The notes beneath the pieces were generated by a model. The model worked only from the letters and a program-made list of their open reading frames with translations, ran no database searches and was not told where the DNA came from. This document shows positions 51,443 through 54,186 of a stretch of 64,000 nucleotides of DNA, piece by piece. A program made the position numbers and the translations under genes. Position 1 is the first letter of the stretch. Each line of letters begins with the position of its first letter. The stretch comes from Pseudomonas mohnii (GTDB lineage: Bacteria > Pseudomonadota > Gammaproteobacteria > Pseudomonadales > Pseudomonadaceae): NCBI RefSeq assembly GCF_900105115.1, contig NZ_FNRV01000001.1, positions 4,634,501-4,698,500 of the forward strand, in the 5' to 3' direction.

Positions 51443-51628
51443 ATGTCGAAAGTACAAGGCATCACCGAACTGCTGGGAATCTTTCCGTGCCTGGGCAGCG
51501 GGCGGCGAAGGCGCCGGCTCAATTCCGAAGAGATGAAACTGGTGGAGCGCTATCGCGAATTGTCGGAAAGCGACCGGATTGCGATGAGGTATCTGGTGGA
51601 TGCGATGCGCAGTGTTTCGAGGTTTTAG
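51443..51628 (+). CDS. Small basic protein of unknown function
   Basis: 61 residues. The N-terminal third is hydrophobic with a single cysteine (SKVQGITELLGIFPCLGSG), a basic patch RRRRR follows at 21-25, and the C-terminal half is an amphipathic helix (SEEMKLVERYRELSESDRIA). GAGAAGGA lies about 10 nt upstream of the ATG, and an intrinsic terminator follows the stop by 15 bp, so this looks like a complete single-gene unit. I do not recognise a family. The arginine patch may bind nucleic acid or membrane phosphates, which is speculation. Confidence 0.7.
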   Translation: MSKVQGITELLGIFPCLGSGRRRRRLNSEEMKLVERYRELSESDRIAMRYLVDAMRSVSRF

Positions 51629-51684: not shown

Positions 51685-52194
51685 TCAGCGGGTTCCGGCT
51701 ATAGGGAACGGTCGTTGTACTTGCATCAACTCAGGCATGTCCCGCCACTTTACCCAGGCGTGATGTTGGTAATGCAGCAGAGGCACCGAAACTCCGGCCC
51801 AATTCAAGGCGCTCAGGCTGGGCAGGTTTTCCGACGACGATGCCTGTGCATTGCGCAACATGGGCACGACTTCGTTGCTCAACCATTGCCTCAGATGGCG
51901 GTTTTCCGGGATGAAGTGGTGAACCAGCAGCGCGTACATGCCTGATTCGCTGACCATCAACGCATCGACGATCTTGCCGTCCTTGAGCAAGCAAACGCTG
52001 CGACGCTGATCGGGGTCGAGCTTCTGGATGAGGCGTTCGTTCAATGGTTGACCCATCAGGCGGCCAAGGTCCTGAACGCAGAACCAGGCTTGGTGGTCCT
52101 GGATGAAGGCGTGGAGGAAACGGTTGTGGCGCGTGAAGACGGTAGGGGTGAAGCAGGGATAAGTGTCAGACGGATTTGACGCGTGCTTGTGCAT
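51685..52194 (-). CDS. BRO-N domain protein, phage antirepressor-like
   Basis: 169 residues resembling the BRO family N-terminal domain of phage antirepressors: VFTRHNRFLHAFIQDHQAWF, VQDLGRLMGQPLNERLIQKL, MVSESGMYALLVHHFIPENR, and LRQWLSNEVVPMLR. In phages such proteins bind DNA or repressor and trigger lytic genes. Here it stands alone: no integrase, repressor or structural phage gene is seen, so it is a domesticated or remnant gene. The ATG at 52192-52194 has GGAG 7 nt upstream; the frame is open to 52281 but only a structured RNA leader lies there. That leader (52202-52435) has C4-RNA-like pairing elements and probably controls translation. Confidence 0.82.
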   Translation of the reverse strand: MHKHASNPSDTYPCFTPTVFTRHNRFLHAFIQDHQAWFCVQDLGRLMGQPLNERLIQKLDPDQRRSVCLLKDGKIVDALMVSESGMYALLVHHFIPENRHLRQWLSNEVVPMLRNAQASSSENLPSLSALNWAGVSVPLLHYQHHAWVKWRDMPELMQVQRPFPIAGTR

Positions 52195-52201
52195 TGTTCG
52201 A

Positions 52202-52296
52202 CTCCATGTTGAAAAAGGAGCCGCCACTGATCCTTCGACAGATTGGGGTGGCGGACCGTGCGGCGTTCGAAGTCGGAACATTCTCGATCAACATGG
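52202..52296 (-). promoter_or_regulatory. BRO-N mRNA leader: ribosome-site sequestering elements
   Basis: Three parts in transcript order (minus strand). The first, at 52296-52267, is the element starting CCATGTTGAT. The second is a hairpin with arms CCGCCAC/GTGGCGG (52254-52248 and 52227-52221). The third is TCAACATGGAG at 52212-52202, which includes the Shine-Dalgarno GGAG of the BRO-N gene. TCCATGTTGA of the first part and TCAACATGGA of the third are exact 10-nt complements, so they can pair around the middle hairpin and hide the ribosome site. The first part is also complementary to the upstream C4-like RNA. Confidence 0.65.
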
Positions 52297-52347
52297 AAGC
52301 CGAGAGGCCCGCGCCACAAGGCCCGCCATAACGCGAAGCTGAAAGGC

Positions 52348-52435
52348 AAAAAAATGCCCCAGCTCGTATGGGGGCGCGGATGCGCCATGTTGATATGTTC
52401 CGGCTTCGACTCCGGGTCGCTGGTTGTGCAGCGAC
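52348..52435 (-). ncRNA. C4-antisense-like RNA upstream of BRO-N gene
   Basis: On the minus strand, in order: hairpin GTCGCTG/CAGCGAC (52435-52416); an unpaired antisense segment TCGAAGCCGGAACATATCAA + CATGG (52409-52385); hairpin GGCGC-ATCC-GCGCC (52386-52373); and an intrinsic terminator GCCCC/GGGGC followed by ATTTTTTT (52375-52348). The antisense segment matches the reverse complement of the downstream leader element 52267-52296 at 24 of 25 positions, with a 5-nt bulge. Position, terminator, antisense pairing and the antirepressor-type target are the traits of the C4 RNA class of phages P1/P7. The assignment is from structure, not from a covariance search. No promoter was firmly identified; it should lie at about 52440-52570. 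Confidence 0.68.
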
Positions 52436-52566
52436 GGGACAAAGCCTATCGGTCAGGCGCTCGCGGCGCCAAGTCTACTCTGGCGACGCGTGATGTAGGA
52501 ATCGCGGGTTTTTCATGAAGGTCGAATCTGTAGTTTTTTTCTGCTTTTGCCTCTGCAAAAAGTACA

Positions 52567-52701: not shown

Positions 52702-54186
52702 TTAGCGGCTCACCTTCCAGGCATCCCCGGCAGGCGCCGTACCGTGGTCATACGGCTTGGCGATCCACATGTACAGCAGGCCCAGGCCAATGACGATGGC
52801 GGTGCTCAGGACCATGGCGTAGTTGATGTACCACGCCGCATCCGGGGTACGTGGCCAGGCCATGTTGACGATGGCGCCGATGCCGTAGGTCAGTGCGCCG
52901 ATGTTCACCAGCCAGCCCCAGGCACCGAGGGTGAATTTGCCGCTCGGTTTCCAGCCTTTGAGGCGTGCATAAAGCGCGGCGAGCACGATCATCTGGAACG
53001 CCAGGTAGATGCCGATGGCGGCGAAGCTGACGATGGTGGCGACGGCGTCCTGCAGGAAGAAGCCGAGGATGATGATCAGGGCCGGCAGGACACCGGACAC
53101 GAACAGTGCGGCAACCGGAACCTGGGTCGTAGGAGAAATCTTTTTAAGCAATCGGCTGCCGATCACCATCTCGTCACGGGCATAGGAATACAGCAGACGG
53201 CTCGCCGCCGCTTGCAGGCTGATGACGCAGGAGATGAAGGAAATCATGACCACGCCCATCACCACTTTCGAACCCACGGGGCCGAAGGCGTTGTTGAGGA
53301 TGGTGGTGACCGGGTCCTTGTCGGTGCCGTTGATCACGGCTTGCATGTCTGGCACGGCGAGGATCAGCGCCAGGCAGGCGAACATCGCGGCGATGCCACC
53401 GATGTAGATGGTCATGCGCATGGCCACCGGGATTTTCTTGCTCGGGTTCGGCGTTTCTTCGGCGACGTCGCCGCAGGCCTCGAAGCCGTAGTACAGGAAC
53501 ATCCCCGCCAGCGACGCGGTGAGGAAGGCGGGCAGGTACGAGCCATCGATGCTGATGTCGAAGGTGTTGAACAATACGCTGAGCGACTGATGGCGTTCGA
53601 AAACCAACAGGTAGACACCGACGATCACCGCGCCGATCAGTTCGCAGAGGAAGCCGAACATGGCAATGCGCGCCAGCGTTTTGGTGCCGCTGAGGTTGAC
53701 CAGCGTGGCGAACAGCGTCAGGAACAGGGCAATGACGATGTTGGTGTTGTTGTTCGGTTCAAAGCCCATCATGGCGGCCAGGTAGGGACCGGCACCCACG
53801 GCAACGGCAGCGATGGTCACGCACAGGGCGATGGAGTAGATCCAGCCGACCATCCACGCCCAGCGCTTGCCCACCAAACGACGGGCCCAGGGGTACACGC
53901 CACCGGAAATCGGGAACTGCGACACCACTTCACCGAAGATCAGGCACACCAGTAACTGGCCGCAACCGACCAGCAGGTAGGCCCAGAACATCGGTGGGCC
54001 ACCCGCGGCGAGGCACAGGCCGAAGAGGGTATAAACCCCGACGACCGGGGAAAGATAAGTGAAGCCCAGGGCGAAGTTTTCCCACAGGCTCATGCTGCGA
54101 TTGAAGTTGGACGTATAACCCAGTTTACGTAGCTGCTCGGCGTCGCTATCGACAACGCCGGCAGAGAGTTCGGGTGATTTACTCAT
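52702..54186 (-). CDS. Amino acid permease, APC superfamily (ACT/GABA-type)
   Basis: 494 residues with about 12 membrane segments. The N-terminus LRKLGYTSNFNRSMSLWENF followed by ALGFTYLSPVVGVYTLF is typical of the amino acid-choline transporter (ACT) group, and the loop GFEACGDVAEETPNPSKKIP is the conserved consensus amphipathic region. It imports an amine or amino acid by proton symport. Its place next to patD and ydcSTUV suggests a putrescine- or GABA-related substrate (inference). It is followed by a strong terminator. A gap with a REP palindrome separates it from patD, so it may be transcribed separately. Confidence 0.85.
   Translation of the reverse strand: MSKSPELSAGVVDSDAEQLRKLGYTSNFNRSMSLWENFALGFTYLSPVVGVYTLFGLCLAAGGPPMFWAYLLVGCGQLLVCLIFGEVVSQFPISGGVYPWARRLVGKRWAWMVGWIYSIALCVTIAAVAVGAGPYLAAMMGFEPNNNTNIVIALFLTLFATLVNLSGTKTLARIAMFGFLCELIGAVIVGVYLLVFERHQSLSVLFNTFDISIDGSYLPAFLTASLAGMFLYYGFEACGDVAEETPNPSKKIPVAMRMTIYIGGIAAMFACLALILAVPDMQAVINGTDKDPVTTILNNAFGPVGSKVVMGVVMISFISCVISLQAAASRLLYSYARDEMVIGSRLLKKISPTTQVPVAALFVSGVLPALIIILGFFLQDAVATIVSFAAIGIYLAFQMIVLAALYARLKGWKPSGKFTLGAWGWLVNIGALTYGIGAIVNMAWPRTPDAAWYINYAMVLSTAIVIGLGLLYMWIAKPYDHGTAPAGDAWKVSR

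Follow-up and report, generated by a model that had tools for sequence, protein, structure and literature searches.

The window analysed here, a stretch of 64,000 nucleotides from the 6.59 Mb genome of Pseudomonas mohnii, encodes on its minus strand a solitary BRO-N gene (51685..52194) with a product of 169 amino acids. The ATG start assigned to it is consistent with the alignment of its orthologues. Bro-N (35 bits) is the sole Pfam match of the protein, no C-terminal antirepressor domain has been found in it by Pfam, and in PHROGs it is related to anti-repressor families. In its C-terminal third (LLHYQHHAWVKWRDMPELM) there may be, judging by appearance, one half of another BRO-N motif. The profile of the protein has no match among solved structures. 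The gene is situated between an amino-acid permease gene (52702-54186) and a short conserved open reading frame (ORF) with an opgD/mdoD-like gene. The short ORF (51443-51628, plus strand) encodes 61 residues, is 80-100% identical and lies beside BRO-N in all the 39 orthologous loci, and has no Pfam match. A short BRO-N fragment (profile positions 67-96) identified elsewhere, at G000:C1:4982665-4982754, is probably a broken copy.

The 39 orthologues comprise the entries down to G105 from a search of 298 genomes. The mdoD-like gene and the 61-residue ORF adjoin BRO-N in every one of them and the permease gene in many, which points to a single syntenic locus. The named carriers are species of Pseudomonas, including P. 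jessenii, P. mandelii, P. koreensis and P. laurylsulfatiphila. In a second homologue search 24 of 26 loci share at least 67% identity, and the other two, from a Pseudomonas and from 'gamma proteobacterium L18', have 50-51%. Three neighbour proteins (the opgD/mdoD-like protein, the 61-residue protein and the permease) were compared with PHROGs without a match at E 0.01 and, judged on these three, no prophage is apparent around BRO-N, as the original prediction had it. The chromosomal neighbours, the synteny in 39/39 loci and the lack of a close relative in the phages, plasmids and viral contigs searched place the gene outside any apparent prophage immunity region. The phage search returned 150 records, all below 60% identity to BRO-N, the 25 listed being 27-29% identical over 60-67% of the protein. 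The best of 11 plasmid records has 33% identity, and no close relative was found in viral contigs with short peptide patterns, which detect close relatives only. The phage homologues are named antirepressors, both in this search and in PHROGs, and by analogy a DNA- or repressor-binding role would be the natural guess for BRO-N.

C4 is the textbook immunity RNA of phages P1 and P7. The BRO-N gene had been predicted to carry a C4-type antisense leader with two targets, and Rfam, the pairings and the Pfam Bro-N match agree with this. At gathering thresholds no Rfam family matches the window. In a permissive scan C4, c4-a1b1 and isrK are all identified on the minus strand, and all below their curated cut-offs. 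A C4 match had been anticipated, and one is found (RF01695; 52244..52333; E 0.00014), at 34.2 bits under a cut-off of 45. The c4-a1b1 model (RF03163; 32.9 bits, E 2.3e-06, cut-off 46.7) covers the first part of a set of IsrK-like hairpins (52396..52448), and isrK (RF01394; 29.9 bits, cut-off 50) matches the same upstream hairpins at 52435-52350. The order in the leader is c4-a1b1/isrK upstream, C4 in the middle and then the ribosome site. On these matches the middle element is recognised as C4, the upstream hairpins (52448-52385) as the a1/b1 target copy and the Shine-Dalgarno region as the second target. The original prediction had taken the upstream hairpins for the C4-like RNA, whose pairing with the leader element would free the ribosome site. 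Its pairings are real and relief by the upstream RNA is retained below, but the C4 model matches the middle element (52333-52244) and the a1b1 and isrK models match upstream of it; the roles are therefore swapped, and the earlier assignment has hardly any probability left.

The segments of the leader, all on the minus strand, are as follows. The b' loop of C4 (CCATGTTGA, 52288..52296) pairs with both b1 (ATCAACATGG, 52385..52394), a pairing that is conserved, and b2 (TCAACATGGA, 52203..52212), which overlaps the Shine-Dalgarno sequence GGAG (52202..52205). The a' segment of C4 (TTCCGACTTCGA, 52267..52278) pairs with a1, and in a predicted duplex (locus L001) also with a probable a2 target (TGTCGAAGG, 52232..52240) directly after C4. 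With complements at the ribosome site and in the upstream copy, the element has the target loops of C4, and the gene downstream of it is of antirepressor type by Bro-N and the PHROGs anti-repressor families, its activity being predicted only. The C4 of the BRO-N lineage is classified as a divergent subfamily, since its Rfam scores are below 45 in the window and in all 15 scanned orthologues that carry it. The GCCACC end of C4 is nearly conserved among the orthologues and is only suggestive of release by RNase P. No promoter was found in the leader by a sigma-70 scan; a possible promoter (TTGGCG-18-TAGGCT, 52443..52472) is proposed from the likeness among orthologue leaders. The motif TTCCTAC (52495-52501 in the window, minus strand) is possibly the site of a regulator; of the 56 regions upstream of BRO-N, 47 have two copies of it and 9 have a single copy.

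Both complementarities described in the original prediction have been recovered. Between 52409-52385 and 52296-52267, 24 of 25 bases are paired and one is mismatched, a bulge of 5 nt interrupting the helix (-31.8 kcal/mol), and the complement of b' at 52212-52203 is perfect over 10 nt. An equally good pairing with the entire C4 segment is reached by 22 of 1000 dinucleotide shuffles of the upstream region and by 23 of 1000 of the ribosome-binding site, and exact complements of at least 10 nt are present in 19/1000 and 9/1000 respectively. The complementarity at this G+C-rich locus alone is only moderately unusual. The predicted fold of the leader is better than that of any of its 100 shuffled versions (z -4.4). 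The Shine-Dalgarno sequence is predicted to be mostly closed with or without C4 or a1/b1, also in loci that lack C4; this prediction covered 28 C4-bearing and 9 C4-less loci (37 of 56) and does not separate the states.

It is the conservation across the orthologues, rather than the shuffles at the single locus, that makes the case for pairing. C4 is present in 30 of the 39 orthologues and absent in 9. The covariation foreseen for the pairing segments is present among the 30. The b':b2 cells are paired in 95.5% (28.5-50.0% when slid by 1-3 columns) and the b1:b' cells in 94.8% (27.9-48.6%). The C4 fold, with its long P1 stem and the P3 stem under the b' loop, has 95.9% of cells paired (36.4-53.6% when slid). 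Pairs changed on both sides number 3 in b':b2, 2 in b1:b' and 3 in the C4 stems. For each helix set none of 500 shuffles attains the observed value of paired cells, of doubly changed cells or of covariation. The count of doubly changed pairs is unusual for the C4 stems (reached in 2/500 shuffles) but not for the two target helices (283 and 434 of 500), and in none of the sets do further pair types stand out in number (500, 500 and 480 of 500). One b1 pair is looser, being an A-C mismatch in 5 of the 30 leaders, and b2 is still paired there. The a1:a' helix has 78% of its cells paired overall, with two positions paired in 0/30 and 2/30. In an Rfam scan of 19 orthologous loci C4 was detected in 15/15 with the segment (31.6-42.2 bits) and 0/4 without it, and c4-a1b1 in 17 of 19, every score under the cut-off.

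Addition of 17 further distinct loci gives 56 orthologues, whose b' segments fall into two types, CATGTTGA, referred to as AUG (18 leaders), and CGTTTTGA with its variants, referred to as CGU (26); the remaining 12 leaders have no C4. In all 44 C4-bearing leaders b1, b' and b2 are of the same type, the class patterns for b1 and b2 having been written after the sequences were inspected and L121, unclassified under a stricter pattern, being counted as AUG. The swap energies are independent of these patterns except for the grouping by b'. The mean energy of b' with b2 is -19.1 with its own, -18.8 with that of another locus of the same type and -10.5 with the other type, and the corresponding means of b' with b1 are -16.6, -15.8 and -8.1. 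Preservation of structure and matching over 44 leaders, together with synteny in 39/39 loci, argues against a decaying prophage relic devoid of present function. Such a relic would agree with the apparent absence of phage genes around BRO-N and with the stop or frame break seen in 3 of 39 orthologues, and we regard it as very improbable.

We consider it probable that the leader of BRO-N works as an antisense switch of the C4 type with two targets, in which C4 blocks BRO-N and the upstream a1/b1 copy relieves the block. On its transcription and processing, the direction of its effect and its action in trans we infer the following. A single transcript would carry, in this order, the a1/b1 target copy, C4 and the true target a2/b2 overlapping the BRO-N ribosome site, and C4 would probably be cut out of it. 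Through b' (and a') C4 would pair with the ribosome site and repress BRO-N in cis, and probably also in trans. The a1/b1 RNA would offer C4 the same sequences and draw it away, relieving the block as IsrK does in Gifsy-1, and BRO-N would be made when the a1/b1 RNA outruns C4. As C4 would pair with the ribosome-binding site and a1/b1 would compete for C4, the polarity is an ordinary one, and the departure from the simple C4 model suspected earlier disappears once the roles are corrected.

The CI RNA of phage P4 acts on transcription termination, unlike the role proposed for the BRO-N C4. It resembles this C4 in being an antisense RNA that lies between two matching targets, seqA and seqC, as described in the available part of the IsrK paper (PMC4825925), where the P4 parallel is discussed. 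A similar control of BRO-N, in which the pairing of C4 with a1/b1 would stop the RNA polymerase before the gene and the ribosome site would be less important, is judged unlikely. The original prediction ended three upstream hairpins in an intrinsic terminator, and a terminator-like hairpin (52373-52357) with a T run is indeed found between b1 and C4 (52348..52373, minus strand), but the 3 such sites in 1.5 kb compare with a mean of 1.7 in shuffles and the hairpin is not conserved. Some such site lies between b1 and C4 in 14 of 18 AUG leaders, the hairpin listed differing from the predicted one in 8 of these 14, and in 2 of 26 CGU leaders, which keep the pairings nevertheless; in the leaders without C4 a terminator-like site is found in 0/12. 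The well kept overlap of b2 with the Shine-Dalgarno sequence also speaks against termination control. The terminator as a fixed part of the leader has been rejected, as it lacks a counterpart in most of the orthologues.

The leader blocks do not follow the tree of the BRO-N coding body. For the 56 loci the three haplotypes are scattered over this tree and need 20 changes on it, yet with some clustering, since shuffling gives a mean of 24.9 and so low a count in 1 of 200 cases. If only the well-supported branches are considered, at least 12 changes are still required for AUG, at least 12 for CGU and at least 6 for the lack of C4, and in each of 11 independent contrasts b', b1 and b2 are in agreement (p 0.00098). 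A tree of 39 loci needs 16 changes; its shuffles have a mean of 17.9, and 34 of 200 reach so few. Identity stretch by stretch has been compared in 14 locus pairs picked from the tree. In the seven C4-bearing pairs of unlike type it is 54-71% in the vicinity of b1, 74-88% over the greater part of C4, 56-67% in the vicinity of b2 and 47-77% over codons 1 to 20; the same pairs have 82-97% immediately ahead of a1 and 85-97% in the body of BRO-N, with the exception of L002/L004, whose body has 77-87%. The like-type pairs L011/L017 and L005/L007 are 92-100% identical throughout the block. Pairs with one C4-less member diverge over other, partly longer stretches, and the intergenic DNA farther upstream is divergent in most of the 14 pairs.

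These comparisons suggest that the block from b1 to about codon 20 has been repeatedly exchanged between Pseudomonas species. The matched types travel as one linked block of about 250 nt, so that the contrasts may reflect exchange and not independent compensatory mutation. Much of the type matching is linkage, because the block is short and moves whole, and the absence of mixed blocks is consistent with selection without proving it. A chromosomal counterpart of phage heteroimmunity is tentatively suggested, as a possibility that we hold to be somewhat less than even: b1, C4, b2 and the first 20 or so codons would form a swappable lock-and-key block across Pseudomonas, kept diverse by the trans action of C4 on incoming copies of its own type or by the need to avoid cross-reaction among the dozens of C4 modules of a genome. 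If so, the genus would hold a large network of self-contained antisense switches on small genes.

In the 12 loci without C4, a1/b1 is joined straight to the ribosome site. Their b2 is CAACTTGG, CAATATTGG or similar, none keeping the AUG or the CGU class, and an AUG-type C4 pairs with it weakly (mean -13.3, as compared to -18.8 for like and -10.5 for unlike types). A BLAST search with the C4 of the window over 9 of the 12 genomes found no second copy, with one 33-nt match, in G097; both positive controls were matched. An additional pattern search for C4 elsewhere suits the CGU type only, matched one of two controls and adds little. Repression of the C4-less loci by a C4 elsewhere in the genome is not supported by the BLAST result for these 9 genomes. 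The C4-less loci also bear on an addiction resembling that of type I toxins, in which free BRO-N would be harmful, C4 its antidote, and the turnover of haplotypes due to the harm that an unmatched C4 brings to a cell receiving an incoming copy. This would account for the apparently repeated exchange of the specificity block and for a C4 matched to each type. We consider it decidedly unlikely, as 12 of 56 orthologues have BRO-N without C4, with no other copy of the window's C4 in the 9 of these 12 genomes that were searched, and the phage homologues of BRO-N are named antirepressors.

The P. mohnii genome encodes 10 other C4 matches above the cut-off (55-87 bits), nine of them with an a1b1 match just upstream, three of which exceed the a1b1 cut-off. 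In all 11 C4 loci, that of BRO-N included, an ATG is found 45-55 nt after C4, and it opens an ORF of at least 40 amino acids in 8 of 11 (7 of the ten others). Downstream of the ten lie two DUF3077 genes, three DUF6124 genes, three genes for proteins of 90-107 residues that no Pfam family matches, and, at L038 and L051, a frame that is short or broken. At L036 the DUF3077 gene starts farther down and a 34-codon ORF comes first after C4. Two of the three full DUF3077 genes of this genome have C4 and one has a1b1 only, and C4 accompanies three of six DUF6124 matches, the partial sixth having been left out of the Rfam scan. At G000:C1:4517486-4517537 an a1b1 element without C4 directly precedes a DUF3077 gene, a layout as in the C4-less BRO-N loci. 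Five small-protein types were compared with PHROGs: the DUF3077 protein has relatives with no assigned function (6.7e-13), so that DUF3077 cargo also occurs in phages, which speaks against a purely host set of genes, and no relatives were found for the other four.

Within this genome the cognate duplexes of C4 and target have a mean of -31.2 kcal/mol as compared to -26.4 for non-cognate ones (1 of 20000 re-pairings is as good), and those of C4 and upstream copy -44.7 as compared to -34.9 (0/20000). A single cognate partner is not always the best of its row: it heads 4 of 11 rows in the comparison with targets and 8 of 11 in that with upstream copies, and for the BRO-N module it does so both times. 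Across the genus C4 is detected at E 0.001 in 110 of 119 Pseudomonas genomes, above the cut-off in 109, and in 0/14 control genomes; at E 1 one control genome matches, below the cut-off. With at most 33 candidates scored per genome, 16 of the 119 have 33 or more matches. In 28 of 30 high-scoring genus loci, drawn from the best-scoring and so not a random sample, an ATG opens an ORF of at least 40 amino acids 40-65 nt after C4, as compared to 425 of 3000 positions picked at random within these loci. Seven other BRO-N genes are among the 30, and inspection by eye adds sequences resembling DUF3077 and DUF6124 as well as a family of 52-residue proteins.

The fold, the a' and b' segments, the target at the ribosome site and the antirepressor-type gene downstream are common to the BRO-N leader and the C4 of P1 and P7 (RF01695, RF03163); unlike the latter, the BRO-N C4 is chromosomal, scores below the curated cut-off and is missing from 12 of 56 orthologues. 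The P1 and P7 C4 RNAs differ in specificity (PMC5320573, available part). In Salmonella the short upstream RNA IsrK of Gifsy-1 opens translation in trans, and the IsrK / STnc1160 / orf45-anrP-antQ system would share with the BRO-N leader an upstream RNA that copies the target, a complementary RNA (processed in Gifsy-1) and a closed translation start, as far as described in the available part of PMC4825925. Equating STnc1160 with C4 is our own reading. Gifsy-1 is a prophage whose small orf45 is coupled to anrP (same source), whereas BRO-N is a lone chromosomal gene with a terminator that is not conserved.

C4 and c4-a1b1 have been predicted in proteobacteria and phages (PMC2864571), isrK, C4 and sRNA-Xcc1 are annotated in Xylella (PMC12189769), and Pseudomonadales are quoted among the predicted carriers of C4-like sRNA (PMC5320573), according to the portions of these papers at hand. 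The C4-like sRNA family of Acinetobacter baumannii is described in PMC5320573 as multi-copy, expressed and apparently processed, and its Group 1 members are, like the modules of P. mohnii, many C4-type RNAs in one genome. In the available text their targets are left open between incoming phage and bacterial transcripts, whereas in P. mohnii every one of the 11 C4 is followed at 45-55 nt by an ATG and pairing is better with cognate than with re-paired targets, which suggests a concrete local target for C4-type RNAs of bacteria. The literature searched, which lacks most subscription papers, contains no report found by us of the block exchange or of C4 with the DUF3077 or DUF6124 families; no paper on DUF6124 was found in it, and the sole DUF3077 paper deals with furfural tolerance. 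Among the matches listed, judged by title and the start of the abstract, there was no paper on C4 in Pseudomonas, and the matches listed for BRO-N with antisense control contained none. A phage immunity device would guard a chromosomal gene, its specificity apparently exchanged between species at a fixed locus, and DUF3077, DUF6124 and several unnamed small proteins would be linked to one regulatory device. Why a host would keep immunity types becomes testable in laboratory pseudomonads.

Other leaders of BRO-N genes have also been identified. At L102:4000-6800 a CRISPR repeat array adjoins a tandem pair of BRO-N genes, each of which has a C4 to itself. Upstream of two paralogues C4 is replaced by sRNA-Xcc1 (RF02221, 66-69 bits, above the cut-off), at L103:4566-4649 and L105:4564-4649, both on the minus strand; at L144 and L145 the same RNA is assigned upstream of BRO-N by sequence likeness only. 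Predicted duplexes join GTTTCTTA within sRNA-Xcc1 to CCTAAGAAAC upstream and, close to the start codon, to CCTAAGAAAG or a like sequence; the neighbouring segment of sRNA-Xcc1 varies along with both targets. It belongs to a different RNA family but resembles C4 in its predicted matching targets on both sides, and may be a two-target RNA of the C4 kind that folds differently. The leaders before the paralogues at L099, L100 and L101, in which no Rfam RNA was found, possibly represent a third type, with matching segments CCCAACGTAGA, CTCTACGTTGG and AACGTAGAG recognised by eye in L099.
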